DNA of 64,000 nt from the NCBI RefSeq assembly GCF_022647505.1, contig NZ_CP071409.1:3472001-3536000 (forward strand), read 5' to 3'. This stretch comes from [Pantoea] beijingensis. Its GTDB lineage: Bacteria; Pseudomonadota; Gammaproteobacteria; Enterobacterales; Enterobacteriaceae. Shown here in pieces: positions 14,124 to 41,563 of this stretch (within the stretch, counting starts at the first letter, position 1; every line of letters begins with the position of its first letter). The notes below the pieces were generated by a model. The model was not told the DNA's origin and made no database searches. It worked only from the letters and a program-made list of their open reading frames with translations. Both the position numbers and the translations under genes were made by a program.

Positions 14124-14256
14124 AGCGGTTCTCTGTCAGGAAATTTGAATATACTCAGCAGATTAACTGGCTAACAATCCGCCGTCCACAAACTTACCAT
14201 GGAAACATGACAATATCCGGCGATCCGGTGCCACTACAAGGGCCGAGGAAATAACG

Positions 14257-14961: not shown

Positions 14962-14988
14962 AAAAGGCGGATAACGATCCGCCTTTTT
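14961..14988. terminator. Bidirectional terminator yhaK/dolP
   Basis: AAAAAGGCGG-ATAACGAT-CCGCCTTTTT is a symmetrical GC stem with A and T tracts on either side, between convergent genes. Confidence 0.85.
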
Positions 14989-15007
14989 ACAGTAGCGCGG
15001 CTGTCGA

Positions 15008-15580
15008 TTACTTAAGGATAGTAAACGCCGTGGTGACGTGCTTCACACCACTTACGCGACTGGCCGTGTCTGCCGCCGCTTTCGCTTCAGCATCCGTTAC
15101 CATGCCGAGCAAAAATACCTCTCCGTCTTCGGTTGTCACTTTCACGTTGGATGATTTAACCTGGTCGCTGGCCAGCAGTTGGGAGCGGACCTTAGTGGTG
15201 ATCCAGGTATCTGAAGAGGCGGTACCTATCGAGACTTTATTACCCTGACGGATTTCGTTATAGACCTCATTTGCGCCATCTACACCCATGGCAATTTGCT
15301 TCACACGATTAGCAATATCGCTGTTCGGCGCCTGGCCCGTCAGCAAAACTTTGCCCTGATAGGCCGTTGCCACAATATGGGTATCATTTTTAATTTGCTG
15401 ATCTTTGCCCAGCGCATTACTGACGCGCAGCTCTAAGGTGCCATCATCAACCTGTGTGCCAACGGTACGCGGATCCGTTGCGCTCTTGGTGGCTACGGCC
15501 GCACTGCCTACAACCACTGCTGCACACCCCTGCAACAACAGCGTGCAGAGAATCACGGCTACTAAAGATAAATCCTTCAT
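15008..15580 (-). CDS. dolP: Outer-membrane lipoprotein DolP (YraP)
   Basis: Dual-BON-domain lipoprotein that maintains outer-membrane integrity and binds anionic phospholipids and the BAM complex. A lipoprotein signal ends at LLLQGC (Cys19). Two BON domains follow: about residues 45-115 (VSNALGKDQQIKNDTHIVATA) and 120-190 (ITTKVRSQLLASDQVKSSNVK). The ending VTTAFTILK matches the family. It follows diaA by 10 bp and is probably cotranscribed from the yraN-diaA side. Length is 190 residues, as in E. coli. Confidence 0.95.
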   Translation of the reverse strand: MKDLSLVAVILCTLLLQGCAAVVVGSAAVATKSATDPRTVGTQVDDGTLELRVSNALGKDQQIKNDTHIVATAYQGKVLLTGQAPNSDIANRVKQIAMGVDGANEVYNEIRQGNKVSIGTASSDTWITTKVRSQLLASDQVKSSNVKVTTEDGEVFLLGMVTDAEAKAAADTASRVSGVKHVTTAFTILK

Positions 15581-15590
15581 TTATGCTCCT

Positions 15591-16181
15591 TCAATCATCC
15601 TGGTGGGGAAATAAGGTGTTATCTATTAAGTCACACAGGCAATTCACGGTTAACATGTGCATTTCCTGTATCCTTGAGCTCCTGTGTGAGGGAATGCGAA
15701 TTTCCACATCCTGCGGCCCCAACAAACCGGCGAGCTCACCGCCGTCATAACCCGTCAACGCAATGATGGTCATATCACGCGTTACTGCCGCCTCAACGGC
15801 TTTGACAATATCACGGCTATTACCGCGCGTAGAAATCGCCAGCAACACATCCCCGGTATGACCCAACGCACGTACCTGCTTAGCATAAATTTCATCGTGT
15901 AACCGGTCATTACCTATGGCAGTTAACAGCACATTATCAGCACTGAGCGCCACAGCGGGCAGACTGGGCCTTTCAGTTTCAAAACGGTTAATCATACTGG
16001 CCGCAAAATGCTGGGCATTGGCCGCGGAGGTTCCGTTGCCACAACTCAGGATTTTGTTGCCATTAAGCAGAGACTGCACCATGGTCATCGCCGCTCGTGA
16101 AATCGCGTCCGGCAGCGCCTCTGCAGCTGCTATCTGCGTTTGAATACTCTCGGTAAAACACTCTTTGATTCTTTCCAGCAC
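15591..16181 (-). CDS. diaA: DnaA initiator-associating protein DiaA
   Basis: SIS-domain protein of 196 residues that forms a tetramer and binds DnaA, promoting initiation at oriC. The phosphosugar-isomerase-like fold is seen in [21 protein letters not shown] (residues about 44-64) and [20 protein letters not shown]. It lies between yraN and dolP with short gaps, the conserved lpoA-yraN-diaA-dolP order, so it is likely part of one operon. Confidence 0.95.
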
Positions 16182-16195
16182 GCTATCACCTGGCT

Positions 16196-16591
16196 TTAAA
16201 CATCTGCATTAAACGCATCGGGCAACCACTCAAGCTGATCCCCGGTGATGGCGACTACGTCAAAACGGCAGTCGACCGTATCAAAACTGGCCCCGCGCGC
16301 TGCCAGCCAGAGCGCCGCCGCACGCAGCAACCGTTGCTGCTTTTGTGGCGTCACACTGGCGGCAGCCCCCCCAAAATGTGCATGACGGCGGTAGCGAACC
16401 TCAACAAATACCCATCGCCGCTTATCACGCATAATGAGATCAAGTTCGCCGCCACGAAAGCGCACATTAGCGGCTTCAAAAATCAATCCGGCCTGCTGCA
16501 GATAACGGCGAGCGATTAATTCATAGTCCGCCCCTTTCTGCACCGTGCTTAACGCGCCGAAACGATTTGTCCCTGACGATACTGGCTCCAT
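16196..16591 (-). CDS. yraN: UPF0102 nuclease-fold protein YraN
   Basis: Small protein (131 residues) with a restriction-endonuclease-like fold. The core motif [22 protein letters not shown] (the E...D...ExR pattern of PD-(D/E)XK nucleases) is complete. Its cellular role is not settled. Its start lies 43 bp inside the end of lpoA, so the two are translationally linked. Confidence 0.9.
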
Positions 16592-26341: not shown

Positions 26342-28822
26342 TTATTGACATGTCAAGCTTACATTATTAATTCTTTCCATATCTTTTTTCTCATCATAAC
26401 TAATTGTAAACTTACATTTATTATTATTATCTACTTTTACTGTGTACTGAGTTCCAGCTCGAACACCGGTTAAGTATACCGTGTGGTCATCATTAACAAT
26501 TGACGTTGAACTGTCAGCATCAGATGTAACAATAGTGCCAAACTTGAGCGGTGTGCCTTTATAACTGACAGAGGCTAAAAAGTTATAACCTTTACGTACA
26601 TCAAATACAACTTTGCTAATTGCTCCTCGTGTTGGGGCAACTTTCAGTATTTTCCCATCAACATCATAACCTGTGCCAAATGATTCTGGTGACAAGGCAA
26701 CATCATTATAGTGATAAGCCGTTGCATAAGGAATAAGCGCATAGCCAAAACGGTCTATTGATATATTCTCTCCTACTCTATCGAGCTGTGCTCCTACGGC
26801 ACCTTTAGCCTCAACTAAAATTGCTGTATCATTTGCTTCTCTGGCAAAAACTACTCCGCCCTGATGGATCACCATAGAACCTGTCACACCATAGTCAAAC
26901 TCTTTAGAATTGCCCGTGAATGATGTACCTGTGCTTATGTCAGCAGCATTTGCTTTATAATGTGCATTTAAATTAGATCTATCTTGATTGTTATTGCTGA
27001 CAGACTGATAAATATTATAATTAAATTTATTATCTAACGCATTTCCATACAAGCTAGTGTTATTGCTATATTTCGAATTGTTATAGCTAGTACTGCTTGA
27101 CAAATACATTCTATTTTTCTCAATGCCATTAGTTAATGGCATTGAGAATGACAGATAAAACATATTATCGCTCAGGCTTCGAAATTTGGTTTTGGTATAA
27201 TTAGCAGATAAACTTACATTATTTAACTGTGTAAATGTTTTATTCCAACCAATCTGGGTGTTCTGAGATTTTGTGTCTGTTCCCCAGTAAGAATTCACAT
27301 TACCCCATAAATATAACTGTCCATAATCACCCAGACTCTGAGAAACATTGATCTGGAAACTATTTTTCTTCCTCTCGCTTCTTGAATAGAAGAAGTAATC
27401 ACCGGCATCATATTTAACACTGTCTTGATAATTAGCTTCACTCAGGCTGTAGTAATTAGACGTCGAATAGCGGTACCCCGTTAACTGAATGTTTGTTCCA
27501 GTATCACTGAAAGATTTTGCATATAAAACTCGATAAGAATTTCCGACGTAATTTTTACCTTTAATTGTTGCCTTAGCCTGAATCGAATCTAAAGATAGAG
27601 CACCAATATTACCCATATCTTTTCCTAAACCTAAGCCAAAAGCGGCATAGTCATCTGCAATCTGGTATCCGGTATACACAGTTGTGTCAAGGGGTAAACC
27701 ATAGCCAAATGTACCCTGGAGAAATTTACTTTTCTCTGCATATGAGATATCGAGTTGCCCTGCGGAAACTGAATAATTATATCTTCGATGACGTAATAAG
27801 TTCGGCAGTGAAGAATAAGGGACGATATACCTCGTTACCAAACCTTGATCCGAGGTTAATTCTACCTCATAGTCGCCACTGGATCCTACCGAGTTCAAGT
27901 TATCTATATTATAAGGTCCAGGATTGATATACTCCTGATAAAGAATGTTATCATTTTGTTTAATTGTTATTTTTGATCGTGTTTCAGCAACACCTTTAAT
28001 AACTGGGCTATAGCCTCTTTCACTTTCAGGCAGCATCTCATTAGATGTGGCAAGTGACACGCCAATATAGGTATTTGAGTCAAATAACATTGATCCCAGA
28101 ACACTTTGTCCGATGGTTAACGTTGATCTGATAGAATTAATGTTTTTTGTGGCAAAAAAGTTATTAGAATTCCATTCATGGCTAGATTTGTTACCTGTTT
28201 TACTTTGATTGTAATACGTACTTGAATTAAATCGCCATGAACCAAGATTCAATCTATTAGAAACACTAAAAAATGTGGATGAATAATCTTCCATTTTTTT
28301 GTTTTTCGTGTAGGAACCATTAACGTTATAATTAGTTACTAGTGCAGGTATACCATCATCCCAGTCCGCTTCATTCGCTAATGTTGAGCGAATCGATTTA
28401 AGGTAAACTTGCGGTATTTGTAGTGTCAATGTAAGTTTTGATAAGTTAACATCATAATTAAAGTCATCAATATAATCTGAAATATTAATACATGTATTTT
28501 CATCAGACACTGCATCAAATTTGGCAGATGCATCCTTATTTAGAGGAATGATGTCAATAATTTTCTTTGTAAAACATGCTGAAACTTTCTTTTTTTTATC
28601 TTCTTTGAAGATCACATCCATACTGCCTAAGAAACTATCCCCGACATTTATACTCAAGAAATACTTACCCGGTGTTACATTGTTTCCTGCAGCAATATAA
28701 GAAAGATCCTCGATAGAATCGACATCAGACCCCAGGAAGAGAGGATTAAAATAATCCTGCGAATATGAATAATTTACATTTAAAAAAAAAGTAAAAAACA
28801 GGAATCCTTTCATCATTCGCAT
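26342..28822 (-). CDS. Outer-membrane fimbrial usher
   Basis: 826-residue usher that secretes and assembles the fibre. A signal peptide (FLFFTFFLNVNYSYSQ) is followed by an N-terminal chaperone-binding domain, a long beta-barrel (about 130-640) with a plug region (PESERGYSPVIKGVAETRSK and NPGPYNIDNLNSVGSSGDYE, classical usher signatures), and two C-terminal domains ending in LTCQ with the C-terminal Cys pair (CKFTIS, SLTC). It sits 15 bp after the chaperone gene. Complete and without interruptions. Confidence 0.95.
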   Translation of the reverse strand: MRMMKGFLFFTFFLNVNYSYSQDYFNPLFLGSDVDSIEDLSYIAAGNNVTPGKYFLSINVGDSFLGSMDVIFKEDKKKKVSACFTKKIIDIIPLNKDASAKFDAVSDENTCINISDYIDDFNYDVNLSKLTLTLQIPQVYLKSIRSTLANEADWDDGIPALVTNYNVNGSYTKNKKMEDYSSTFFSVSNRLNLGSWRFNSSTYYNQSKTGNKSSHEWNSNNFFATKNINSIRSTLTIGQSVLGSMLFDSNTYIGVSLATSNEMLPESERGYSPVIKGVAETRSKITIKQNDNILYQEYINPGPYNIDNLNSVGSSGDYEVELTSDQGLVTRYIVPYSSLPNLLRHRRYNYSVSAGQLDISYAEKSKFLQGTFGYGLPLDTTVYTGYQIADDYAAFGLGLGKDMGNIGALSLDSIQAKATIKGKNYVGNSYRVLYAKSFSDTGTNIQLTGYRYSTSNYYSLSEANYQDSVKYDAGDYFFYSRSERKKNSFQINVSQSLGDYGQLYLWGNVNSYWGTDTKSQNTQIGWNKTFTQLNNVSLSANYTKTKFRSLSDNMFYLSFSMPLTNGIEKNRMYLSSSTSYNNSKYSNNTSLYGNALDNKFNYNIYQSVSNNNQDRSNLNAHYKANAADISTGTSFTGNSKEFDYGVTGSMVIHQGGVVFAREANDTAILVEAKGAVGAQLDRVGENISIDRFGYALIPYATAYHYNDVALSPESFGTGYDVDGKILKVAPTRGAISKVVFDVRKGYNFLASVSYKGTPLKFGTIVTSDADSSTSIVNDDHTVYLTGVRAGTQYTVKVDNNNKCKFTISYDEKKDMERINNVSLTCQ

Positions 28823-28837
28823 TAGATCATTTCCAGA

Positions 28838-29524
28838 TTAATTAAAGTTGCATTGTTTATCTTTAATCTGAACACCATAATCATTGATAAAGTTAAATTT
28901 TAATTTTTTACTTTTATCGCTTGTGTTCAGCATGAACTCAGTCATCGGGGCAATAGTTGCAGCAGGTAGCACTTCCTTTCCATTTATACTTAATGAAGAT
29001 AAGTTCATATAAAATGGCGTTGGGTTTTTAATTTTCAAATTATTATTTTCATAGCTACACCTTAATTTTTCGTATGACGTAAATGAATCTCCATCAATAT
29101 TGGTTGGCCTGGTAAATAATTTTATTTTAGTGGTAGTGGAAATTAACAGCGCATTGTCTATCTTTTTTTCTTCCTCCGTTAGCGATGGAATGACTTTAGT
29201 GTTCAGGTAATATAACTTCTCTTTGTTCTTGTAGAGTTTATTTTTATCTCCTGTGTATACTACATTTAGTAAACTGTCAGTATTTGCCTGAATGACAAAA
29301 AGGGGCGGCGTGATGATAAAATCTGACACCTTTTTATCATTCTCATCTGTTACCCATGACTGAACAAGATAGTTTGAATCCTTGTCACTGTTATAAACTT
29401 TCAGGGTCGCTTGATTTTTATCAATCGGATAGATCAACCGAGTGGCTCCTAATGAAACGCCACCTGCATTTACCGAATGACAGCATAATAATAAAGGAGT
29501 GATTAACGCTATTTTTTTTAACAT
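28838..29524 (-). CDS. Periplasmic fimbrial chaperone (first)
   Basis: PapD/FimC-like chaperone, 228 residues, signal peptide ending near CHSVNAGGVSLG. Anchoring residues are Arg in GATRLIYP and Lys in TKIKLFTRP; the FIITPPLFVI and YYLNTKVIPSL segments are typical FGS class. The start at 29524 is used because GGGG precedes it and the signal peptide begins there; the frame's earlier ATG lies only 27 bp upstream. Located between the major pilin and usher genes, as in most type 1-like operons. Confidence 0.92.
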   Translation of the reverse strand: MLKKIALITPLLLCCHSVNAGGVSLGATRLIYPIDKNQATLKVYNSDKDSNYLVQSWVTDENDKKVSDFIITPPLFVIQANTDSLLNVVYTGDKNKLYKNKEKLYYLNTKVIPSLTEEEKKIDNALLISTTTKIKLFTRPTNIDGDSFTSYEKLRCSYENNNLKIKNPTPFYMNLSSLSINGKEVLPAATIAPMTEFMLNTSDKSKKLKFNFINDYGVQIKDKQCNFN

Positions 29525-29586
29525 ATTTACCCCAAACAGGTAATTGGTCATGTCTGACCAATTACCTTTAATTTAAAGAGTTAACA

Positions 29587-30144
29587 TTAATTGTAGGTCA
29601 GCATGAAGTTTGCAGCAGATTGAACCTTACCTGCAGTTACTGTGGCTGCTGTTGATTTGTAATCTACAGATAGTGGGATAGTAGTACTGCCTGTCACAGC
29701 CACTGGATTACTGATCGTGCCAACATTTAATGCAGTACCATTTGGATTAAATAACTGCAGGCCTACATTCTCTGCAGAACCAGCACCTGCGTTATTGGAT
29801 AACACACCTGGTTTACCTTCGACAGTCTGGCCGCTAAAAGTAATTTGTACTGTTTTAGCAATTTCGGTATTACAATCAACCAGACTGATGGTGAATGGTT
29901 TTTTAGCATTAGCCAGCTGATCCGCTGCTTTAAAAACACTTGTTTTTACAGTATCCAGAGTAACGATTTTATCGGTATCTGATCCAGAAACAGCACAAGC
30001 TCCTGCAGTTACTTCTCCGTTAAATGTAACCTTACCGCCATTCACGCTCACTGGAGTTGGTTCTGGATCAGCTGCATTTGCTGCGCCGCAGATCAGTGTA
30101 GCCAGTACAGCAGAAAGTAATGTGATTTTTTTGTTAATAAACAT
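29587..30144 (-). CDS. Major fimbrial subunit (FimA-like pilin)
   Basis: 185-residue pilin and first gene of the operon. Signal peptide MFINKKITLLSAVLATLICG...NAAD. The mature N-terminal donor strand GGKVTFNGEVTAGACAV holds the first cysteine; the second is in FTISLVDCNTEIA; IPLSVDYKSTA and the terminal NFMLTYN complete the fold. It is separated from the chaperone gene by 62 bp, as usual for the highly expressed shaft subunit. It is probably the target of FimZ-type control. I could not assign it to a named fimbrial type. Confidence 0.92.
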   Translation of the reverse strand: MFINKKITLLSAVLATLICGAANAADPEPTPVSVNGGKVTFNGEVTAGACAVSGSDTDKIVTLDTVKTSVFKAADQLANAKKPFTISLVDCNTEIAKTVQITFSGQTVEGKPGVLSNNAGAGSAENVGLQLFNPNGTALNVGTISNPVAVTGSTTIPLSVDYKSTAATVTAGKVQSAANFMLTYN

Positions 30145-31769: not shown

Positions 31770-33689
31770 TCAAAGCCGGCTCAGGCAATCCATCGCGACG
31801 GCCTTAAAGCTGGCAAAGTTCTCGCTTTCACGCAGGCGTATCATCGCCCTTTCTCGCATAAAGGTAACGAACAGGTCGTAAATGGCCATTGCCTCTTCGT
31901 ATTCAGTTTTACTGATCGCCAGCAAGAAGATGACATATGCCACCTCATCCCCCCAGACAATGCCCTGCGGTGCCAGAACGGTATAGACCACGGTCTTTTT
32001 CGCCAGTAATCCCAATGAGTGCGGTAGCGCGATCCCTTCCCCCAGCATGGTGCTGACAATGGCTTCACGCTCTTCTACCGAAGGATAAAACTGCTCATCA
32101 ACATAGCCTTCCAACTCCAGATGACCGCACAACTGACGAAATAGCTGTGAACGCTCGATCGGCTGGTCAATCACGAGAAAATGGCTCTCATCAAAAAATT
32201 TTTCCAGCATATAAGGTTTGGTACGATCAACCAGCACCAGCTTACCAATTTGTTCCAGTTGGTATTCAGTAGGAAAAGGTGACATCACCACGCTGGGTTT
32301 ACCCTTCTCACTCAAGCGCGCAGTGGAAATGACAAAATCTTCATCAATACTCTGCATCTCTTCATACTCACGCAGCGAGACGATGTTCTTTACCTCGATT
32401 TGTGGATACTTGCGCATCAGCATCGCCTGGATCATCCTTACCGTTGAATTACCGGTATCACAAACCAACAGAACCTGTGGATGTCGTTGATAGCCCACGT
32501 TGTAGTGCCGTTCCAGCCCAACACCGATATGCAATACCAGAAAGCCGATCTCATTTTCACTGATCGCATAAGGGGTGTATTTCCCCCAACTCGATACCGC
32601 AGCCAGCGTGACATCATATGCCATGGGATAGTGCTGTTTGATATTGGCTAATAATGGATTAGGAATGTGTATCTGATAACGTACCCGCGTGATCATAGTT
32701 TTGATATGGGTAAGCAAATCAGCGCGCAGTTGGGGATCGTTCTGCAGATTGAAGTTGTAGTGGTTATTGATATAACTAAGGATATAGTCCACCAGCGACT
32801 CGCCGTCGTCCGGGCCGATGGCGCTGGGCGCAATCTCCTGCACACGGCGCGCGGCAATATTCACCCGCAGGTAGGCCTCTTCTGAAGGAGAGATTGCCTT
32901 TCCGGTGATAGGTCGCATCAAATTAATCATATGACGTGCAGCATCACGCACATCATCATCCACATCCTCAGCGCTGAAATCCGAAAGTGGGTACCCTTCA
33001 CTGATCCGCCTCACTGCAACCGCGCAGTAGAGACGCAGATAATGTTCGCAGTCATCGGTCATTCTCACGTTAAAGCGCGAGAAACACTGATGCAGCAACG
33101 GCTGCAGCGTCATCAGCATCCCGCTGTTGAGTACTTCAAGATTCAACAGTGGGCTTTCGTTCTCTTCCTGTGAAATCTGGTATAGCAAATCGGTTAAACA
33201 GGTACGAATCGAGACTTCGCTACCAAACAACTTCATGCCATAACGCGGCTTGGTTTCAATTTCCAGGTTATACCGATTTAGCCATTCTCTCACTTCAGCC
33301 ATATCACTTTGCAGCGTGGCACGACTGACAAACCACTCTTCCGCCAGGTCCTCAAGCTTAAGCGAAAAGGCTGAAGTAAGAAAACGGGTCAATAAATAGT
33401 GCACCCGCTCGGCCGAGGTCCGAGGAACGCGCAGATGCGTGCGAGCCTCCTGTAGTAAACGTCCATAGCGCGCAGCGTCATCAATTCTCAACTGGTAGCC
33501 TTCACCACGATTCAAAACAAAATGTGCTCCATGTTGGGCCAGCATTTCGTTCAACGCGATAATATCAGTCCGTACGGTACGTGTAGAAACGGCAAAACGC
33601 CGCGCCAGCTCATCCTGCGGCAGAGTTTCGTTTTGCAGCGTGTCAAACAGCTGCGCCAGTCGTTGATTGGGAAATCTCACATCACTCAT
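31770..33689 (-). CDS. BglG/MtlR-type PRD transcriptional activator with EIIB and EIIA domains
   Basis: 639-residue regulator. Domains in order: N-terminal HTH (about 8-60, RFAVSTRTVRTDIIALNEML), a second Mga-like HTH (about 95-150), PRD1 (about 185-290, His216), PRD2 (about 300-400, His328 and His387), EIIB-like domain with Cys410 (LLVCDTGNST) and a fructose/mannitol-type EIIA domain with His557 (GEGIALPHS). The second PRD1 histidine position appears to be Asn277. Such proteins activate sugar operons and are tuned by PTS phosphorylation. It is the last gene of the same-strand cluster and is its most likely regulator, yet no PTS permease is encoded nearby. Confidence 0.9.
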   Translation of the reverse strand: MSDVRFPNQRLAQLFDTLQNETLPQDELARRFAVSTRTVRTDIIALNEMLAQHGAHFVLNRGEGYQLRIDDAARYGRLLQEARTHLRVPRTSAERVHYLLTRFLTSAFSLKLEDLAEEWFVSRATLQSDMAEVREWLNRYNLEIETKPRYGMKLFGSEVSIRTCLTDLLYQISQEENESPLLNLEVLNSGMLMTLQPLLHQCFSRFNVRMTDDCEHYLRLYCAVAVRRISEGYPLSDFSAEDVDDDVRDAARHMINLMRPITGKAISPSEEAYLRVNIAARRVQEIAPSAIGPDDGESLVDYILSYINNHYNFNLQNDPQLRADLLTHIKTMITRVRYQIHIPNPLLANIKQHYPMAYDVTLAAVSSWGKYTPYAISENEIGFLVLHIGVGLERHYNVGYQRHPQVLLVCDTGNSTVRMIQAMLMRKYPQIEVKNIVSLREYEEMQSIDEDFVISTARLSEKGKPSVVMSPFPTEYQLEQIGKLVLVDRTKPYMLEKFFDESHFLVIDQPIERSQLFRQLCGHLELEGYVDEQFYPSVEEREAIVSTMLGEGIALPHSLGLLAKKTVVYTVLAPQGIVWGDEVAYVIFLLAISKTEYEEAMAIYDLFVTFMRERAMIRLRESENFASFKAVAMDCLSRL

Positions 33690-33773
33690 CCATCATTGAC
33701 GTTAGTTGTTATCAAAATAACACAGGGCGAATCGATCGCCCTGTTTTCATCTGTCCACTGACTGTGGTCGATA

Positions 33774-34913
33774 CTAAGGAGTCAGGACCATCGCCGAAGG
33801 CGCGCCCACCGCAGTATATTCATCACTGAAGAGCAGCTCACCGCTGGCGCCGTCTACGCTAAAGCGCGTAATATTATCACTCCGCTGATTCATGACATAA
33901 ATGGATTTTCCATCCGGCGATAAGGTAAGCGTGCGTGGGTAATCACCGCGCGTCCAGATATCATCCTTATGCGTCAGCGCACCACTCGCTTCGATAGCAA
34001 AATGTGCAATGCTGTTATGCAACCGATTGGCGATATACAAATTTTTACCCGCACTGTCGATAATTAGCCCTGCGGCAAAACTGGTGCCTTTATAACCCGC
34101 GGGCAGTGCTGAGACCGTTGCCCTCTCAGACAATGTCCCCTGCTTTTCATCAAGAGCATAATGCGTCAGCGTCGAAGCCTCTTCATTAATCAGATAGATC
34201 CCTTTTCCATCGTGCTGAAAAACAAAGTGCCGCGGACCGGCCCCCTCAGAAGAAGCGGGGATCCAGGCAGGTTTATTGGGCATCAGTTTGCCATCATCGC
34301 TCAGGCGATATTGATAAATACGATCCAGTCCTAAATCGGTCGCAAAAACAAATTTTCCGCTACGATCGCTGGCGATCATGTGAGCGTGCGGACCGTTATG
34401 GTCGCTTATGGCAAAGCTGCCTTCTACCGCAGCTACGGGTCTGCCTGCGCCCGCAGGACCTTCATCCTGCTTGCTGTCGCTGGCTTCACTCAAGCTACCG
34501 TCGGTATTCACCGGCAAAACCGCGACGGTTCCGCTGATATAGTTAGCAACCAGCAGGTGCTTGCCGTTTGGCGTCAGGGACAGATAAACCGGCCCCGCCC
34601 CCTTCGAACTCACCTGATTCAGTAACGTCAGGCCGCCATCCATGCCTATCTTATAAGCCGCAATCATGCCCGGCTGGCTTTCACTGCCGACATACAGCAC
34701 CTTACCCTGCGTATCCATTGCCATCTGGGCCGCATTAGGTAACGTACTGACCAATTTTTTATCGCTCAATGCGCCGTCGGGACCAACCTGGAAGCGATAG
34801 ACCCCTTCACCATTCGGGTTATAGGTTCCTACATAGGCATATTGCGCCTGGGCAAAAAAGGGTGTCATCGCCATCAGCCCCATAGAGAAAACAGAAATTA
34901 ACGATTTACGCAT
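33774..34913 (-). CDS. Exported seven-bladed beta-propeller lactonase
   Basis: 379-residue protein of the Pgl/YbhE lactonase family (6-phosphogluconolactonase-like beta propeller). Repeated blade motifs are YAYVGTYNPNGEGVYRF, HLLVANYISGTVAVLP, FVFATDLGLDRIYQY, LYIANRLHNSIAHFAI and IYVMNQRSDNITRF. Unlike cytoplasmic Pgl it begins with a clear signal peptide (KSLISVFSMGLMAMTPFFAQAQ), so it should act in the periplasm. The start at 34913 follows GAGGAAA; the longer frame is rejected. It follows the aldolase gene by 37 bp, suggesting that a sugar lactone is opened before uptake. Confidence 0.82.
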   Translation of the reverse strand: MRKSLISVFSMGLMAMTPFFAQAQYAYVGTYNPNGEGVYRFQVGPDGALSDKKLVSTLPNAAQMAMDTQGKVLYVGSESQPGMIAAYKIGMDGGLTLLNQVSSKGAGPVYLSLTPNGKHLLVANYISGTVAVLPVNTDGSLSEASDSKQDEGPAGAGRPVAAVEGSFAISDHNGPHAHMIASDRSGKFVFATDLGLDRIYQYRLSDDGKLMPNKPAWIPASSEGAGPRHFVFQHDGKGIYLINEEASTLTHYALDEKQGTLSERATVSALPAGYKGTSFAAGLIIDSAGKNLYIANRLHNSIAHFAIEASGALTHKDDIWTRGDYPRTLTLSPDGKSIYVMNQRSDNITRFSVDGASGELLFSDEYTAVGAPSAMVLTP

Positions 34914-34950
34914 ATTTTCCTCACCCGGGGCCAATGTATGGCCCACGTTG

Positions 34951-35691
34951 TTATGCCAGCAGTTTTTTAGTGATTGCCAGCAGCGTAGCCACATCTTCCG
35001 GGCGCGTGTCGCCAGAAGCTTTATCGATGATAGAACTGTAGATATGCGGAATGATTTTGCTCACGCCCGCATCCAGCGCAATCTGCAGGATGGTTTCAAA
35101 ATTTTCCAGATCGATGCCACCCGTAGGTTCCAACCAGAAATCATGACGTGCGCAGGCTTCAGCGACAGCCTTAAATTCGTCGATCGAGGCCAGGCCGCCC
35201 ATCGGGAAATATTTGATCGAGCTGCCGCCCATATCTTTTAGCAACGCAATGGCTGTTTCGACCGGGACGATCCCCTCAGCCGCTTGCGAACTCAATGGGC
35301 CGGTAGAGATTTTGACCAGCCCCGGCTTACCCGTAGGCGAAACCAAACCGTTCACCACCGTCTCAGACTGTCCCAGCAGCGCACGGCTTGGACCAACACC
35401 GGTAAAAACCTGATTGACGTGTTGAGGCTGCACCTGCGCAGAAATGGCACTGACCATCGCTGACTGATTCGGGTCACCCGCTCCCAGTCCGACAGAAAGT
35501 GCATTGTCGATCAGCGCCGCGTACTCACGCATATCGGTCACCGCCTCGTCGACAGTGCCATAATTTTTCGACAATACGCCCACCAATACATGACCTTCAG
35601 CCGCCTGCCAGATCGCACGTGCGTTCTCCTTCGATCCCGCAAGTACATTCAGGCAGACGCGATTTTTATAAAAGTTAGGGGTAAGCGTCAT
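34951..35691 (-). CDS. KDGP-family aldolase (DgaF-like)
   Basis: 246-residue predicted TIM-barrel aldolase of the KDGP aldolase family, homologous to DgaF, which cleaves 2-keto-3-deoxygluconate-6-phosphate to pyruvate and glyceraldehyde-3-phosphate. Conserved runs are HVLVGVLSKNYGTVDEAV, SVGLGAGDPNQSAMV, TGVGPSRALLG, LVKISTGPLS, IKYFPMGGL and LEPTGGIDLENF. The start overlaps the dgaE-like stop (ATGA). The family also occurs as EF_0839 in the Enterococcus faecalis version of this cluster, from memory. Whether its substrate here is KDGP or a relative is inference. Confidence 0.85.
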   Translation of the reverse strand: MTLTPNFYKNRVCLNVLAGSKENARAIWQAAEGHVLVGVLSKNYGTVDEAVTDMREYAALIDNALSVGLGAGDPNQSAMVSAISAQVQPQHVNQVFTGVGPSRALLGQSETVVNGLVSPTGKPGLVKISTGPLSSQAAEGIVPVETAIALLKDMGGSSIKYFPMGGLASIDEFKAVAEACARHDFWLEPTGGIDLENFETILQIALDAGVSKIIPHIYSSIIDKASGDTRPEDVATLLAITKKLLA

Positions 35692-36809
35692 GCGTTTTTC
35701 TCTCCGGCCAGTAAAGCGTTAATGCAAATATAAATGGTATTAAGTTGTTCCGGCGTTACGCTACGGACATCAACTTCAACAATCCCTTCATTGGCCTTAT
35801 AGCCACGGAAATAGATCGCGATTTCGCCCGTTTTTAGCGCCTGCACCAGTTCGCCTGTCGTGCGGCCAATAATGGCTTCATCAAAATGGATCTCCGTTCG
35901 TGCGATGTCTCGTCCGGCGGCATCCCATACCACGCGTGCACTGACGCCCTTCAATGCGTTCAGACTGTCGATAAATGGCGTCATTTTTTCCACCATTTCA
36001 GCCCCGCTCACTTTTTCCCGGGTCAGGTAGTTTTCAATCGCCTGTGTCAGGCCCAGGATCCCCTCCTTACCAACTTTCATCGCACGACCAATGCCATTTG
36101 ACTGACGTTTTACCCACTCAACGTACTGATGTTTACCGACCACCAGCCCGCTGGTAGGGCCTTCAATGGCCTTCGCGCCGCTGTAAATCACCAGATCGGC
36201 ACCGAACTGGTAGTAACACTGTAAATCTTCTTCTGCCGCAGCATCGACGATCAGCGCGACGCCATGCTTACGTGCCACAACAGCCGCCTGTTCGACGCTG
36301 AGATGACTTTTCTGCACACAGTGATGGGATTTGATATAAAGAATCGCGGCCGTCTGCGGGGTGATCGCCGCAGAAAGCTGCTCGGCTGAACATTCGTTGG
36401 CATAGCCCGCTTCAACCAGGCGTCCCCCCCCCATCGTTACCATCGTGCCCACCGGGGCGCCAAAATTGACGTTATGCCCTTTCGGTACAACGATATCGTG
36501 TGGCACGGTCAGCGGCGCGGCGTGTAGGTTTTCCAGCAGCCAGTCGTCATCCTTCACGATGACTGCCGCTACCGACTGAGCGATCCCGGCAGAAGCGCAG
36601 GAAACCACTACGGCATTTTCCGCGTTCAGTAATTTCGCGATGTAAGCACCGGTTTTATTCACCAGGTCTTTCATTTCGAAATAGTGGTTCAGGCCATATT
36701 TGACGGTATCGACAACATCCGAGCTCGGGGTAGAAACGCCCAGGATAGTCATACGGCCGGATGCGTTAATAACTTGTTTTAAATTATATTTTTCATAAAT
36801 TGAAGACAT
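35688..36809 (-). CDS. DgaE-family PLP-dependent ammonia-lyase
   Basis: 373-residue SelA-like fold-type I PLP enzyme. DgaE of Salmonella converts D-glucosaminate-6-phosphate to 2-keto-3-deoxygluconate-6-phosphate plus ammonia. The PLP lysine lies in VIYSGAKAIEGPTSGLV, preceded by ALIVDAAAEEDL; the N-terminus has YNLKQVINASGRMTILGVS. The start MSSIYEKY at 36809 overlaps the amidohydrolase stop by 17 bp. It is directly upstream of the aldolase, the DgaE-DgaF pair that turns a 2-amino sugar acid phosphate into C3 units. Exact substrate is not proven by sequence. Confidence 0.87.
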   Translation of the reverse strand: MSSIYEKYNLKQVINASGRMTILGVSTPSSDVVDTVKYGLNHYFEMKDLVNKTGAYIAKLLNAENAVVVSCASAGIAQSVAAVIVKDDDWLLENLHAAPLTVPHDIVVPKGHNVNFGAPVGTMVTMGGGRLVEAGYANECSAEQLSAAITPQTAAILYIKSHHCVQKSHLSVEQAAVVARKHGVALIVDAAAEEDLQCYYQFGADLVIYSGAKAIEGPTSGLVVGKHQYVEWVKRQSNGIGRAMKVGKEGILGLTQAIENYLTREKVSGAEMVEKMTPFIDSLNALKGVSARVVWDAAGRDIARTEIHFDEAIIGRTTGELVQALKTGEIAIYFRGYKANEGIVEVDVRSVTPEQLNTIYICINALLAGEKNA

Positions 36810-37926
36810 GATTGGCTTTCCCTTCATCAGTCACAACCCACTGGCCCGCGACAACGGACGCTACGGGTACCAGATGTTTCTCGCCCTGGAGGGTTGCCCC
36901 TTCGGAATCAACGAACGGACGAGTTTCTTCTTTGATGGTAAAAATAGTCAGGTCGGCATCAAAACCGGGCTCGATCCGGCCTTTGCTTTTCAGACGCAGA
37001 CCTTCCGCTGCTTTATGGGTAACACAGTCGATCACCTGCGGCAGCGTCATACCCACGCTAAAGAATTTCGACATCACATGGGCCAGGTTATGCACCGGCC
37101 CATGAAGACGGTTACGGCAGTAAATATCCGAACTGATGGTGTCCGGTAAAATACCTTGCGCGATAGCCACGCGCGCCACCTCAAAGCTGAAACTGGCGCT
37201 CCCGTGCCCCACATCAAGCCGAACACCACGTTTTAACGCCTGATGGATGGAGGCCCGCAGCTCGCCAGCCGGCGTCAGAATGCGGTTGGGTTTACCGTTA
37301 TAGCAGTGAGTGATGATGTCGCCTGAAGTGAGTAAATCAGCAATCTCATCCAGATTGGGGGGATTGTTGCCAATGTGTACCATCAGCGGCAGATTATCGT
37401 TTTCCTGCTGTATTTCTTTCGCACGTTGCAGTGGCTTAATACCATTTTGCCCCACCACGCTGCTGCTAATACGCGCTTTAATACCGACGATAAAGTGCGG
37501 CAAACGCTGTACTGCGTCCCGTACGCCGACCTTATCGATCTGCGTCATGTCCGCCAGTTCATTTTGCGTCACAATGCCCGTACGAGCGATATTCAGCAGT
37601 GCGTAAACCTGAGTTTTCGCACTACGCGTGAGCTGGTAAAAATCATCAATATCATCCGCGCCGGTACTGCCCGCATCCACAACGGTAGTAACGCCGGTGG
37701 TCACACCGATAGCATCGGCTTCGTCATGGTAGATCGGCGATTTCGGATAGCAATGGACATGGGAGTCGATCCAGCCGGCACTCAGGTAGTAACGCCCGGC
37801 CAGATCGCGTTCTTGTTTCGCTTTGTCTTGCAATTCGCCAATGGCGGCGATTTTGCCGTCGTGTAGTGCGATATCAACCACACGTTCATCGGTAAGACGC
37901 GCGCGGCGAATAATGAGATCGAACAT
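36793..37926 (-). CDS. Amidohydrolase/deacetylase-family metallohydrolase
   Basis: 377-residue amidohydrolase-superfamily enzyme. Metal ligands visible are His56 and His58 (WIDSHVHC), a probable carboxylated Lys150 (VGIKARISSS), further histidines in LMVHIGNN and DIITHCYNGK, and LDVGHGSASFSF near the C-terminal half. An AAGGAG precedes the ATG. Relatives are annotated as deacetylases or dihydroorotase-like enzymes and accompany DgaE-type genes in this conserved neighbourhood. A likely role is to remove an N-acyl group from the substrate before the ammonia-lyase acts; this is inference. Confidence 0.82.
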   Translation of the reverse strand: MFDLIIRRARLTDERVVDIALHDGKIAAIGELQDKAKQERDLAGRYYLSAGWIDSHVHCYPKSPIYHDEADAIGVTTGVTTVVDAGSTGADDIDDFYQLTRSAKTQVYALLNIARTGIVTQNELADMTQIDKVGVRDAVQRLPHFIVGIKARISSSVVGQNGIKPLQRAKEIQQENDNLPLMVHIGNNPPNLDEIADLLTSGDIITHCYNGKPNRILTPAGELRASIHQALKRGVRLDVGHGSASFSFEVARVAIAQGILPDTISSDIYCRNRLHGPVHNLAHVMSKFFSVGMTLPQVIDCVTHKAAEGLRLKSKGRIEPGFDADLTIFTIKEETRPFVDSEGATLQGEKHLVPVASVVAGQWVVTDEGKANHVFNL

Positions 37927-37976
37927 GACAACTCCTTGAACGACGGCTCACCCTTATGAGCAAGCCGGGATCACCG

Positions 37977-38624
37977 TTAACTGATAGCAACCGGGAAAAG
38001 CGCGCCGAGGATCATCGCGCCGAGAATCGCGCCGCCGGTGATCGGTTTGTTCCAGAGATAGAACAGCAGTGCACCGACCAGTGAGCCAAGACCAATGGGA
38101 ATGGATGCCGCCATTGCCGACAGGATAATCAGCGGCCCGAGAAAGCGACCAGACGCGTTACCTGCACCCATCATGACATCCGCACCGTAGGTTGAATCGC
38201 TTTGGTTGATCGTAAATTTACGCGCCAGAATGATGAGGTAGCCAATGGCCAGCCCAATCACCAGGCCGGTCACTATTGAGGCAGCAAAGTTAGCGACCGG
38301 AAAGACAATGCCTGCGCCTAACAGTAACGCAGGCACGCCCAGGCCAACGCCCGTTTGAATCGCCCCACCGATATCAAGGATCCCAACCAGCGACCCCTCA
38401 ATAATGCGGGCAAACAGAAAGCTTGCACCGAAAGCCGCAACCGCACCATAAGCGCCGGTATCAATGCCCGCTCTCAGCATTGAGACGAAGGCCACTTCGT
38501 TAAATGCCCCGATACCGTAGAGATAGTACATATGCGTACCGGCAAACACGCCCGCAGAGAGCAATCCGACAAAGATCGGGAATGACCAGTCGGCATACCA
38601 AAAACCGCTTTTTGTTTCACTCAT
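37977..38624 (-). CDS. DUF4310 membrane protein (EF_0833 family)
   Basis: About 215 residues, glycine/alanine-rich, with roughly six hydrophobic helices. Conserved-looking loops are MMGAGNASGRFLGPLIILSAM and GTHMYYLYGIGAFNE. No known transporter signature is present. I recognise it as the family annotated DUF4310, which occurs almost only beside DUF4311, DUF4312 and SFCGS genes. The second ATG (38624) is preferred because GAGGA lies eight bases before it. It probably forms a complex with DUF4311 in the inner membrane. Function unknown; a transport role is inference. Confidence 0.8.
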   Translation of the reverse strand: MSETKSGFWYADWSFPIFVGLLSAGVFAGTHMYYLYGIGAFNEVAFVSMLRAGIDTGAYGAVAAFGASFLFARIIEGSLVGILDIGGAIQTGVGLGVPALLLGAGIVFPVANFAASIVTGLVIGLAIGYLIILARKFTINQSDSTYGADVMMGAGNASGRFLGPLIILSAMAASIPIGLGSLVGALLFYLWNKPITGGAILGAMILGALFPVAIS

Positions 38625-38638
38625 TTCCATCGTCCTCG

Positions 38639-39415
38639 TTACTTACCGCTCAAGGCGTTGTGAATCATATCCAGCCAGCCCGGGATACCCAGTTGGAAAG
38701 ACTGCAACATTTTCATATCGAAGCCGCGGAAGAAACCACTCAGAACAAACAGCAACACAATGGCAAGCATCATGATTTTGGTCACTTTGTTCCAGCCACT
38801 CTCTTCAACCCCTTTACCGATCAGGATCCCCAGCACCAACCCCGGTACAGCGTTACCCATAATCAGCTGCGCCAGACCGCCAAAAATGGTGGCCCAGAAG
38901 CCAGATTTCTTACCGGCATCAATCGCGGCCAGCCAGAAAATCACCGGCATCACGGTATTGACCAGCAGGTTAGCAGCAGGGACCAGCACCTTCACTGCCG
39001 TCACTTGTAACGCGGCCGGAACGGCGGAGGCGGTAGAGTTGAGGAAAGCCACCACGATCATGCCGATAATGCCGCAGACAATGGCCATTTTTTTCGGATC
39101 GTGCAGCGTTTCAGCGACGTTGCGGTTCTTCACCATCAGTGCAGCCGCACCCCAGTTAGGAATAATGCGATGGTCAACGTCCTGGGTAAAAGCACCCGCC
39201 GCAACGGAGGAAGCCCAGGCGTTAAAGAAAAAGCCAAGGCCAAAGGAGAAGTGAGAAGCAGGATCGCCTTCACAGGAGTTCAGTTCACCCAGCGTTCGAA
39301 ATGCGCCCATCCCCTGCGTGGTGGGCGCGTGAAACATACGTGCGGCACCCGCACCCACGCCGACCCCGACCAATCCGCCGATGATTAGCGATTTAAATAA
39401 AATAATTAAAAACAT
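38639..39415 (-). CDS. DUF4311 membrane protein (EF_0832 family)
   Basis: 258 residues with about six or seven membrane segments, starting MFLIILFKSLIIGGLVGVGV. Polar conserved-looking stretches in loops include MFHAPTTQGMGAFRTLGELN, CEGDPASHFSFGLGFFFNAW and AFTQDVDHRIIPNWGAAAL, which would suit a substrate or cofactor site. The start at 39415 follows AAGGAAAG; the longer frame is rejected. It lies 14 bp upstream of the DUF4310 gene, so the pair is cotranslated. Family of unknown function; probably the second half of a two-subunit permease. Confidence 0.8.
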   Translation of the reverse strand: MFLIILFKSLIIGGLVGVGVGAGAARMFHAPTTQGMGAFRTLGELNSCEGDPASHFSFGLGFFFNAWASSVAAGAFTQDVDHRIIPNWGAAALMVKNRNVAETLHDPKKMAIVCGIIGMIVVAFLNSTASAVPAALQVTAVKVLVPAANLLVNTVMPVIFWLAAIDAGKKSGFWATIFGGLAQLIMGNAVPGLVLGILIGKGVEESGWNKVTKIMMLAIVLLFVLSGFFRGFDMKMLQSFQLGIPGWLDMIHNALSGK

Positions 39416-39623
39416 CAGTCTTTCCTTAAGGGCTTGCGCCAACGTTTTTTAATCATGATTATTCCCTGATGCATTAATCGCTCAGGGTATCTATGCCCCA
39501 TTCGGAAATGCACCGTCATATGCCGTTCAGAACGTGCCCCACAGGTCAGCCGGTGTAAAACCATACGGCTTTTAGTGCACGCCACGCCGATACAGGCAGG
39601 TCAGGAACCCGAAGGAAACGTTC
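39416..39623. other. 208-bp gap inside the cluster with hairpin
   Basis: The only sizeable gap in the operon. On the minus strand it contains CCCTGA-N12-TCAGGG (39464-39487), a weak hairpin without a T run, and a 49-codon frame (39415-39564) whose TGA overlaps the DUF4311 ATG as TGATG. The small frame has no recognisable features and is not called as a gene. The gap could be an RNA-processing or translational-coupling site. Confidence 0.35.
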
Positions 39624-39923
39624 TTATTGCATCACTGTGAAGGTCACCTTATCGGTGTCAATCACGGTAACGTTGACGACAATTTCCAGCTCAACGCTGT
39701 AATGCCGTCTTTCTCGCGCCAGGAAAAAGAACAGGAATTTCTCTTTTCTGACGCTTTCCTGCGCACGAATGACTCGCACATCCTGTGGCTCAATGCGCAG
39801 CAGAATTTTGTTGGTGGAACGAAGTACCGCACTTTGTACGCGACTCAGGGCATCAGCAAACGCTTTACCTTTGGTGTCACCTTTACCGCTGACACTCACC
39901 GTGGTCGTGGACTGTTCTTTCAT
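39624..39923 (-). CDS. DUF4312 small protein (EF_0831 family)
   Basis: 99-residue soluble protein without signal peptide or membrane segment. It alternates short strands and one helix (KGKAFADALSRVQSAVLRS), ending VELEIVVNVTVIDTDKVTFTVMQ, which suggests a small alpha/beta or oligomeric fold. Its start overlaps the SFCGS stop by 4 bp. It belongs to a family of unknown function found only within this conserved neighbourhood. Function unknown; a cytoplasmic accessory subunit of the DUF4310/4311 membrane pair is a reasonable guess. Confidence 0.78.
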   Translation of the reverse strand: MKEQSTTTVSVSGKGDTKGKAFADALSRVQSAVLRSTNKILLRIEPQDVRVIRAQESVRKEKFLFFFLARERRHYSVELEIVVNVTVIDTDKVTFTVMQ

Positions 39924-40285
39924 GGTTGACCATGCTTTTTGATCCAGGCCTGCACCAGTCGCTCTCCCAGTTCCTCTTTGTCCATAAAACCGAATCCGAG
40001 CACATTACAACCTTCATTGATTGCCGTTACGCCTTCATCAACAGAGCGCATACCGTATTTGGCTTTATAACCATATTTATTCTGCGCGGTAATAGCCCCT
40101 GCGCCGCCGCTTCCGCAGAAGGAGATACCGAAAGTGGCATTCTCTGCTTTCATCACATCGCCCAGTTTCATGTCAGCCGCCACACCGGGTACCACGACAG
40201 CGCGTCCGCCCGCTTTTTCAACACCGGCAGCCACTTTTTGGCCTTTACCTAAACGATCGCCAATTACTACGGTTACTTGTGACAT
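39920..40285 (-). CDS. Glycine-rich SFCGS-family protein (EF_0830 family)
   Basis: 121 residues, soluble. The name-giving motif ISFCGSGGAGAITAQNK places Cys57 in a glycine-rich loop. The segment CNVLGFGFMDKEELGERLVQ (93-112) follows after a YGYKAKYGMRS strand. Both segments resemble, in order and spacing, the RpiB/LacAB isomerase pattern (ICGTGxGxSIAANK ... NVLxxGxRxxGxELAxxIVxAW); I infer a related Rossmann-like fold. Alternatively Cys57 could be a phospho-acceptor like that of PTS EIIB proteins. The stop overlaps DUF4312 (ATGA). Function is unestablished. Confidence 0.8.
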   Translation of the reverse strand: MSQVTVVIGDRLGKGQKVAAGVEKAGGRAVVVPGVAADMKLGDVMKAENATFGISFCGSGGAGAITAQNKYGYKAKYGMRSVDEGVTAINEGCNVLGFGFMDKEELGERLVQAWIKKHGQP

Positions 40286-40309
40286 GTTATTTTCCTTTAA
40301 ATCATGTTA

Positions 40310-40648
40310 TTACGAATTTTCTTTAGCGACTTCAAAGTGGACAGACAGCAGCCAGGCCTCTTCTTTCGGCAAATTGCCAAACAACTCAACCACCTGCCGG
40401 GCCAGTTGCATGGAATCTTCAGAGATATCTTCAAATAGCTCCTCCTCGACTTCCGGCAATGCTTCACCCGTCAAGGATCGCAGCGCCATCGCACTGACAT
40501 GCGAAGCCAGCATCTGCTGCTGTACAGTGTTGGGGGTGATTGCCTTAACTGCAAACAGATCGCCTATCTGCATCATCACCTTGTCGGCCAGCGCGTGGAT
40601 GGCTTCCGGGCTAGCTGCCGAATTCACCGTTACCGCTCCGTTATTCAC
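40310..40648 (-). CDS. Small stand-alone PRD-type protein (EF_0829 family)
   Basis: 112 residues, first gene of the cluster. It looks like a single PTS regulation domain. His50 in LASHVSAMALRSLTGEALP and His104 in EEAWLLSVHFEVAKE occupy the two phospho-histidine positions of PRDs. There is no DNA-binding domain. The start is GTG, with AGGGG seven bases upstream. It may sense PTS phosphorylation and act on the large PRD activator or on the transporter. This is inferred from domain content only. Confidence 0.72.
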   Translation of the reverse strand: MNNGAVTVNSAASPEAIHALADKVMMQIGDLFAVKAITPNTVQQQMLASHVSAMALRSLTGEALPEVEEELFEDISEDSMQLARQVVELFGNLPKEEAWLLSVHFEVAKENS

Positions 40649-40691
40649 GTTATTACCCCTTTCCTCTTCGGATAAACTTTTTCCTGTTGTC

Positions 40692-40791
40692 CTTCAAGCT
40701 CTGTCAGTCGCACCACACATCGTGGCTGAATTGTGAGCAGGTCCAGGCAGCAATATCCTGCGGCTTGAATACTTCAGGCTCTGTCGTTCGC
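40692..40791. promoter_or_regulatory. 20-bp direct repeat pair upstream of the PRD/SFCGS cluster
   Basis: CTTCAAGCTCTGTCAGTCGC (40692-40711) and CTTCAGGCTCTGTCGTTCGC (40772-40791) match at 17 of 20 positions and start 80 bp apart, 44 and 124 bp before the GTG of the first cluster gene. Spacing near eight helical turns puts both on the same DNA face, which suits an activator. No other feature explains them. Confidence 0.4.
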
Positions 40792-40838
40792 GTTAAAATG
40801 AAATTACCCTACAGGAGGTGAGGTTTGTAGACCGACTT

Positions 40839-40858
40839 TTTCCATTTCGAAACGGAAA
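40839..40858. promoter_or_regulatory. Near-perfect 20-bp palindrome upstream of the cluster
   Basis: TTTCCATTTCGAAACGGAAA is its own reverse complement except for one base pair. It lies about 190 bp upstream of the first cluster gene. A cytoplasmic regulator site is more likely than a terminator since there is no loop or T run. Confidence 0.4.
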
Positions 40859-41563
40859 TAGGGCAATGAATAGAGAGCGATGTCGCAAAACCGTTATTTC
40901 ACGCAAAAAGAGCAGAAATTATGAGAGATTCGTCACTTTTTTAGCGAGGTAATGGCAGAGTCATGCATTAATCATGTGGGAATAAAAAATAAATACGCTG
41001 TTGTCGCACAGATATAAGGAAAGGTGATGGCATCCGGCCATACTAAATTACCGATGCAATCGAGTTGCTGAACAGCATGACCTGGCAGGCGATAAAGAAG
41101 AGAAAAGTGTTCCCGGACGGATGATTAAGCACGGAAAGCGATCTTAGCACGCAGGGTGGCTGCGAGCGATCCCACGTCAAATCCCTGACAAGCCGTTTAT
41201 GGACCGGTAAATAATTCTGCATAAATAAGCTCAGTTCTATGTTAATAACAACCCGATAACCGAACTGACAGTAATATCACCGCTAAACTCTTTAAAAGCT
41301 TCGGTATTTTTCTCACGATGCATTTTAAGCTTCAGCTGCGCTAATTTCCCTTAAATCGACAGCGATGAAGCGACAGATGAGGAGTTATTTATCGTTTGGC
41401 ACCGACATCGTCGTAACCACTGCCAATAGCCCCGTAGTGGTACACGTCAGAATGTCGTCAGGAAGCCGTGAAATAATGCGGACGACGGTATTTAATTATA
41501 TCGAGTGTGATTAGTTGCAATTGGCTTCGTCGCCAGAGTGCCTATGGCGCGAAGAATGACGGG
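40859..41563. other. Gene-free stretch between the sugar cluster and cybC
   Basis: About 700 bp without a convincing gene. A minus-strand frame near 41230-41320 reads KMHREKNTEAFKEFSGDITVSS before stopping and could be the tail of a lost gene, but I do not recognise it. The rest shows no strong structure. Confidence 0.4.

Follow-up and report, generated by a model that had tools for sequence, protein, structure and literature searches.

What does a gene cluster do when its families are named in databases mostly as conserved hypotheticals? The question is raised by a cluster in [Pantoea] beijingensis (assembly GCF_022647505.1), whose genome is a single contig of 4.1 Mb. The window, by which we mean the whole 64,000-nucleotide stretch that was analyzed, covers positions 3,472,001 to 3,536,000 of contig NZ_CP071409.1. 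Its open reading frame (ORF) list and profile scans place ten genes, all on the minus strand, in positions 31770-40648. They encode, from the upstream end, a small stand-alone PRD protein, an SFCGS protein, DUF4312, DUF4311, DUF4310, an amidohydrolase, a DgaE-family ammonia-lyase, a DgaF-family aldolase, a lactonase, and a PRD-containing activator. Each profile match exceeds the curated cut-off for its family in Pfam or NCBIfam, which bears out the gene content described in a first-pass annotation made from the sequence. NCBIfam names most of the cluster families just as conserved hypotheticals with locus tags of the EF_0829-EF_0839 and AHA_3910-3917 series; six of the names include Aeromonas locus tags in the range AHA_3910 to AHA_3917. 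The cluster is nevertheless common in the host's order, where 62 of 394 sampled genomes pass the DUF4311 cut-off.

Our answer, held tentatively but as one that may quite possibly be right, is that the cluster is a catabolic operon for a 2-(acylamino)-2-deoxy-aldonate, controlled by the phosphotransferase system (PTS), in which the DUF module imports the substrate and the pathway runs at the level of the 6-phosphate. DUF4311 and DUF4310 would form an inner-membrane permease, working with the small PRD protein, SFCGS, and DUF4312, and these five proteins, whose genes take the position of the PTS permease genes of a dga-type operon, would deliver the substrate either as its 6-phosphate or as a step toward it. 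The amidohydrolase would take off the acyl group, the DgaE-like enzyme would eliminate ammonia to give 2-keto-3-deoxygluconate-6-phosphate (KDGP), and the DgaF-like aldolase would split KDGP into pyruvate and glyceraldehyde-3-phosphate. The PRD/EIIA activator would switch the operon according to the phosphorylation state of the PTS. The catabolic half of this scheme is well supported, and the operon is real and remarkably fixed. Phosphorylating uptake is something we infer, as are the substrate, transport by DUF4310/4311, the place of the deacylation step, and the phosphorylating agent. The first-pass annotation had proposed lactone opening in the periplasm, uptake, deacylation, deamination, and aldol cleavage. 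Gene content, linkage, and lyase have stood up, the lactonase has lost its place in the core, and a phosphorylation step has been added.

Gene order and distribution

The core order PRD-SFCGS-DUF4312-DUF4311-DUF4310-amidohydrolase-DgaE-DgaF-activator is complete, and on one strand, in 77 of 80 named loci. Two of the exceptions, L026 and L066, end at contig ends, and the third, L018, is an artefact of ORF starts whose gene order is normal by tblastn. Four loci with weak matches and no operon (L093, L094, L123, and L124) had been dropped before the counts were made; near-duplicates among the loci are the two Bartonella plasmids, two E. faecalis copies, and L001, which repeats the window. The amidohydrolase comes next after DUF4310 wherever the locus sequence extends far enough, and in every locus of that extent the DUF module is tied to the cassette of deacylase, lyase, and aldolase. 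A membrane pair occurring mostly without the catabolic genes, the pattern that the first-pass annotation had named as counterevidence, was looked for and not seen in loci of sufficient extent.

Distant copies of the eight structural genes are found in Bartonella (on plasmids), in E. faecalis, and on a contig labelled Listeria; SFCGS, DUF4311, and DUF4310 in Bartonella, Enterococcus, and the Listeria-labelled contig are 68-76% identical to those of the window (one Enterococcus contig, L131, ends within the cluster). For E. faecalis locus L127, identity to the window is 73% for SFCGS, 70% for DUF4311, and 69% for DUF4310, compared with 48% for the amidohydrolase, 56% for the lyase, 68% for the aldolase, and 30% for the small PRD protein. 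By these figures the membrane module is better conserved than the amidohydrolase and the lyase. In L127 the aldolase reads as a short ORF of 163 aa, the regulator lies upstream and is just 21% similar, and the stretch at 13620-16352, between DUF4310 and the amidohydrolase, carries a second PTS EIIC, a 99-aa ORF without a Pfam match, and a MupG-type phospho-glycosidase.

Across the phylum the DUF4311 cut-off was passed by 12 of 398 sampled genomes, all 12 in the host's family. It was passed by none of 385 genomes of a class (that of genome G008) taken as alphaproteobacterial from a GcrA match, despite the presence of the operon on Bartonella plasmids. Among named records, Winslowiella, Pantoea, and Erwinia give the best DUF4311 matches, which suggests that the host is close to these genera. 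A Salmonella record has the cluster, tagged STM4440 onward, between cybC and nrdG together with a toxin-antitoxin pair, and Klebsiella is alike. An E. coli collection gave no match to the cluster in a near search (roughly at least 85% DNA identity) and none to the DUF4310-4311 DNA in a distant search; the sole match in an E. coli control genome is below the DUF4311 cut-off. Eight 'phage' records that match the cluster look like host DNA, and the viral_contigs collection gave no match. The near-frozen gene block common to Pantoea relatives, Enterococcus, and Bartonella probably imports and degrades an acetylated sugar acid.

Individual loci show some further features. In Aeromonas caviae (NZ_AP026896.1, 430158-431467) DUF4311 stands about 125 bp from a piece of the aldolase matching residues 98-234, as if DUF4310, the amidohydrolase, and the lyase had been deleted. 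The plasmids of Bartonella sp. HY406 and HY761 (L125 and L126), of about 56 kb, carry an HPr-EI gene and type VI secretion genes in addition to the operon.

The catabolic enzymes and their substrate

The lyase (35688-36827, minus strand; TIGR01437, 587 bits) belongs to the DgaE family of pyridoxal phosphate (PLP)-dependent enzymes. Its residues K219, H169, R310, R341, and R355 are conserved in all 93 alignment rows, rows of 85% length or less having been dropped, and they align with K213, H163, R301, R332, and R346 of PDB entry 7lc0. In glucosaminate-6-phosphate ammonia-lyase, His-163 is the proton donor and a docked phosphate lies near Arg-301, Arg-332, and Arg-346 (PMC9529869, which numbers the active-site lysine 217 where the aligned 7lc0 chain has 213). 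With its active site retained, the assignment as a DgaE-like lyase, already made in the first-pass annotation, holds. The arginine triad points to a phosphate, without being proof of a 6-phosphate. Elsewhere in the enzyme, H168 is conserved in 91 of 93 rows, the two Ala rows including Bartonella L125, and the carboxylate-side Arg226 is divided between 47 rows with Arg and 46 with Lys. A DgaE-like PLP enzyme on a Rhizobium hidalgonense plasmid (L173), found with a RidA protein and an ABC transporter, probably serves a different pathway.

The KDGP aldolase (34951-35691, minus strand; PF07071, TIGR03581), of the DgaF/EF_0839 family, passes the DgaF equivalog model NF047796 with 393.5 bits against a cut-off of 300. 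Its PF07071 match is the only one in the genome, and its relatives in the PDB include 3m0z. The amidohydrolase/deacetylase of the EF_0837 family (36793-37926, minus strand; TIGR03583, 562 bits) keeps H56, H58, K150, H207, and D267 in 96 of 96 rows and H184 in 95 of 96. We read this HxH-Lys-His-His-Asp set as a probable binuclear metal site, by analogy with the superfamily. Its nearest relatives in the PDB are 8wzy and 2ics, and the D-aminoacylase 1m7j is reached with just E 4e-5.

The lactonase (33774-34913, minus strand; PF10282, 311 bits), a seven-bladed propeller protein that is probably exported, had been cast as a core periplasmic step. A relative is present in just 29 of the 78 named loci that reach the activator, the other 49 having none, and for this reason we regard it as accessory. 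Its start is most likely at 34913 rather than 34994, because the Met there opens a signal-peptide-like start (judged by eye).

A substrate that would most simply fit the deacylase, the lyase, the aldolase, and an optional lactonase is N-acetyl-D-glucosaminate (GlcNAc1A). The alternative of another substrate, either with an acyl group other than acetyl or based on a different 2-amino aldonate or a conjugate, strikes us as improbable. It would accord with the presence of MupG in the E. faecalis version (with the second PTS) and the C. difficile version, and with the score of the DgaE-like protein on the DgaE equivalog, 363 bits, which falls below the cut-off of 600; tested relatives in the amidohydrolase's group are also said to favour acetyl-(R)-mandelate-type esters. 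It sits poorly with a DgaF-type aldolase and with the DgaE active-site residues, which are kept.

A source of GlcNAc1A was sought in lytic polysaccharide monooxygenase (LPMO) genes. LPMO_10 occurs in 27 of 62 DUF4311-positive and 78 of 332 negative genomes (394 in all; Fisher p 0.0017 with kinship ignored, and with G435 and G508, which are below the DUF4311 cut-off, counted as negative). Among the positive genomes it is found in 17 of 17 of family f103, which we infer to be Aeromonas-like, in 8 of 25 of the host's family, and in 0 of 17 of family f105; the window's own genome has no LPMO_10 gene. The idea that the host's LPMOs supply oxidized chitin was rejected as a general rule, the effect coming from the single family f103. 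Two Aeromonas species have LPMO genes, but their matches to OngB and OngC, enzymes of a GlcNAc1A pathway compared below, are distant or absent (PMC11653859). For the question that this raises, the cluster offers candidates.

A literature search on DUF4310, DUF4311, DUF4312, SFCGS, STM4440-4447, EF_0829-0839, and TIGR03577-03582, which left subscription papers mostly outside its reach, found no functional study. STM4445 is merely named in PMC7432712, and PMC11000858 lists Salmonella STM4441-2 as unknown genes for which crp is given as the regulator. The promoter of ef_0839, or of the identical ef_2975, is activated in urine (PMC2912369), and EF0839/EF2975 have been suggested to concern amino sugars (PMC7701990).

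The membrane module and phosphorylation

The small PRD protein (40310-40648, minus strand; EF_0829/AHA_3910 family, TIGR03582, 125 bits) matches PDB entry 3nuf, named as a PRD-containing regulator, with E 1.7e-28. Its His50 and His104 are invariant in 127 of 127 rows. The E. faecalis copy matches PF00874, and the window copy has no Pfam match at E<=0.01. The TIGR03582 and 3nuf matches, together with the conserved His pair, place the protein in the PRD family. Cys57 of the SFCGS protein (39920-40285, minus strand; PF14272/TIGR03577) is also invariant in 127 of 127 rows; the 127-row alignments contain the window's own copy twice, as the window and as L001. SFCGS is weakly RpiB/LacAB-like, matching PF02502 (LacAB_rpiB) with E=0.002 and 18.5 bits, below the gathering cut-off of 24.7, and RpiB by hhalign with E 7e-4 and a probability of 26%. 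In the alignment with RpiB, Cys57 falls on the Cys of the CG[ST]G loop and the C-terminal half can be matched, whereas the HD motif of RpiB is not kept. An EIIB match for SFCGS was rejected, since it covers just 7 columns.

DUF4312 is a small protein (39624-39923, minus strand; PF14189/TIGR03578). DUF4311 (38639-39415, minus strand; 258 aa; PF14188, 404 bits, and TIGR03580) and DUF4310 (37977-38630, minus strand; 217 aa; PF14187, 352 bits, and TIGR03579) are polytopic membrane proteins. They are fused in 4 of 120 listed DUF4311 proteins (P0032, P0067, P0074, and P0094), which suggests that the two form one complex, although some of the fusions may be sequencing artefacts. Scans of Pfam and NCBIfam at E<=0.01 gave no EII family for any of the five module proteins. 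Separately, 71 of 74 members of the DUF4311 alignment weakly match DUF2232, an uncharacterized membrane family (best E 3e-4). That the membrane pair is not a transporter at all, being instead an energy-converting or regulatory complex, seems to us very improbable. The lead toward it, the methyltransferase subunit MtrC, is a weak one: the one place in the genome that its Pfam model matches, weakly (E 0.0017, at C1:733141-733458), is not DUF4310, the matches listed for members of the DUF4310 alignment (25 of 31 families) include no Mtr family, and the rows of similar Z are unrelated transporters.

How, then, would the substrate be phosphorylated? The absence of a Dga-type permease, already noted in the first-pass annotation, was confirmed: a genome search gave one mannose-family EIIC (EII-Sor) and one EIID (EIID-AGA), side by side and outside the operon, a pair that looks ManXYZ-like by eye. 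Among the window ORFs the operon has no kinase gene, and a 2-keto-3-deoxygluconate (KDG) kinase was not found in the cluster. Cassettes with other permeases differ in this respect. In Priestia the cassette consists of amidohydrolase, DgaE, DgaF, a sugar kinase, and a gluconate:H+ symporter, and on a C. difficile plasmid it consists of PTS IIB, IIA, and IIC, MupG, amidohydrolase, DgaE, DgaF, and a kinase. An unannotated Niallia cassette has EIIC, MupG, and kinase relatives by tblastn. A dga-type cassette on a Lacticaseibacillus paracasei plasmid has four PTS genes (PTS protein, IIB, IIC, IID) directly before DgaE-DgaF, and no cassette-kinase relative was found in it. A classical PTS does not exclude a cassette kinase (C. 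difficile and Niallia, in a small sample), and the DUF module resembles the L. paracasei permease in doing without an adjacent kinase.

The activator (31770-33689, minus strand) comprises HTH, Mga, PRD, and EIIA_2 regions by profile scan, and its Cys410 region is EIIB-like by motif in our assessment. H328, H387, and H557 are present in 94 of 94 rows and C410 in 88 of 94, in an alignment whose three Bacillota-type activators are just ~20% identical to the window's. On both Bartonella plasmids a 671-aa HPr-EI gene lies 64 bp after the activator. In the L125 protein, Pfam identifies HPr and the full set of three EI domains, and the motifs GLHARPA and GGATSH are intact; the L126 copy is a 100% match. 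This suggests that the imported operon on these plasmids needs phosphoryl transfer from phosphoenolpyruvate, for transport or only for the activator. Because of the phosphate-binding arginines of the lyase, the failure to find a kinase, and the Bartonella HPr-EI, we favour a phosphorylation that takes place no later than the lyase step.

The same evidence bears on a rival that we consider doubtful but serious, in which DUF4310/4311 is an ordinary ion-coupled permease, deacetylation and deamination proceed without phosphate, a KDG kinase is encoded elsewhere, and the PTS only regulates. GlcNAc1A is handled in such an order (OngIT, OngB, OngC, KdgK), with an SSS-family importer, in Pseudoalteromonas (Jiang et al. 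2022, PMC9537276), and the conserved PTS phospho-sites of the activator would explain the Bartonella HPr-EI without PTS transport. Yet a search with three cassette kinases gave relatives in just 1 of 96 DUF-type loci (that of E. faecalis L127), whereas the Priestia symporter cassette has a kinase; the count covers 80 named and 16 other loci, with L026, L066, L130, and L131 cut short and with L113 and short 3.6-kb loci outside it. A simple symporter, moreover, needs neither two small extra proteins nor a stand-alone PRD protein with invariant His residues, and the DGL phosphate-cluster arginines are complete in 93 of 93 rows.

Several points weigh against phosphorylating uptake of an acetylated substrate. 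The kinase search consisted of three PfkB-type queries and covered the loci only; no search was made for a KDG kinase encoded at another place in the genome. The HPr-EI could serve the PRD/EIIA activator alone and hence is no proof of phosphorylating transport. By hhalign SFCGS matches RpiB better than EIIB, and the membrane profiles gave nothing against ManY/ManZ, from alignments too uniform (Neff about 1.5) for this to count. AlphaFold models of the membrane pair are weak (pLDDT 65.9 and 69.5), and fold searches singled out no candidate. A Streptomyces homologue from an apparent biosynthetic cluster likewise has the complete arginine triad, and the Rhizobium homologue beside the ABC transporter has two of the three arginines. 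Acetyl as the acyl group follows only from the family membership of the amidohydrolase.

With phosphorylating uptake as the preferred reading, a bolder and in our view unlikely version would make DUF4311-DUF4310, SFCGS, DUF4312, and the small PRD protein a PTS enzyme II of a new class, not homologous to the known ones. The PRD protein would be the phosphocarrier from HPr, in the role of EIIA, SFCGS would be a phospho-cysteine carrier on an RpiB-like domain, in the role of EIIB, and the two DUF membrane proteins would translocate and phosphorylate the N-acetylated sugar acid. Phosphorylating uptake, if true, would give the PTS a new permease class and explain the stand-alone PRD protein; the enzyme II version would make PRD a transport component, beyond its role as a regulatory domain. 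It would also provide Aeromonas and other LPMO-bearing bacteria that lack clear OngB/OngC with a phosphorylated GlcNAc1A route.

As to layout, 4-bp overlaps are exact for two gene pairs, SFCGS/DUF4312 and DgaE/DgaF, and not for the "several" of the first-pass annotation; the amidohydrolase and DgaE ORFs share 35 bp, given the listed start. Alignment with relatives makes the ATG at 39415, rather than the TTG at 39442, the most likely start of DUF4311. This leaves a spacing of ~208 bp after DUF4312 (39416-39623), possibly regulatory or decayed sequence, compared with roughly 10-130 bp in several other loci. The ORF list has no minus-strand ORF of at least 60 aa within 40649-40858, which we take to be DNA upstream of the cluster. 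Farther upstream, a possible CRP site (40922-40937, minus strand) matches 8 of 10 consensus positions, a score reached exactly by 24 of 80 shuffled sequences and thus common by chance. Scores of 9-10 occur in 24 of 87 loci and 3 of 80 shuffled sequences, a modest enrichment given one simple shuffle per locus and the relatedness of the loci. By eye, the window has cytochrome b562 and PmbA on the 5' side, as well as minus-strand ORFs at 26342-30144, beside the cluster, that resemble a chaperone-usher fimbrial operon (usher, chaperone, subunit).

Comparison with known systems

The Salmonella dga system consists of the mannose-type PTS DgaABCD with DgaE and DgaF. The window shares with it the lyase and aldolase families, the active-site residues, and the arrangement, in the L. 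paracasei order, of permease genes followed by DgaE and DgaF. It differs in having PRD-SFCGS-DUF4312-DUF4311-DUF4310 for the PTS permease, in its additional deacylase, in an operon without a mannose-family PTS permease, and in a lyase that scores below the DgaE equivalog. The families named after EF_0829-EF_0839 and AHA_3910-3917 (TIGR03577-TIGR03583) are the window cluster itself.

The ong pathway (PMC9537276, PMC12017989) resembles our proposal in that deacetylation is followed by deamination, leading to KDG(-6-P). OngB, compared here by its description, is a Cys/His/His enzyme of subtype V and a relative of D-aminoacylase (PMC12017989), whereas the window amidohydrolase is nearest to 8wzy and 2ics and keeps HxH, Lys, His, His, and Asp. 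The ong cluster, unlike the window, has an SSS-family importer and the kinase KdgK. Jiang et al. 2022 (PMC9537276) weighed the possibility that GlcNAc1A is phosphorylated first and, for Pseudoalteromonas, decided against it; if our reading is true, the window operon would be the missing phosphorylate-first version of the GlcNAc1A route.

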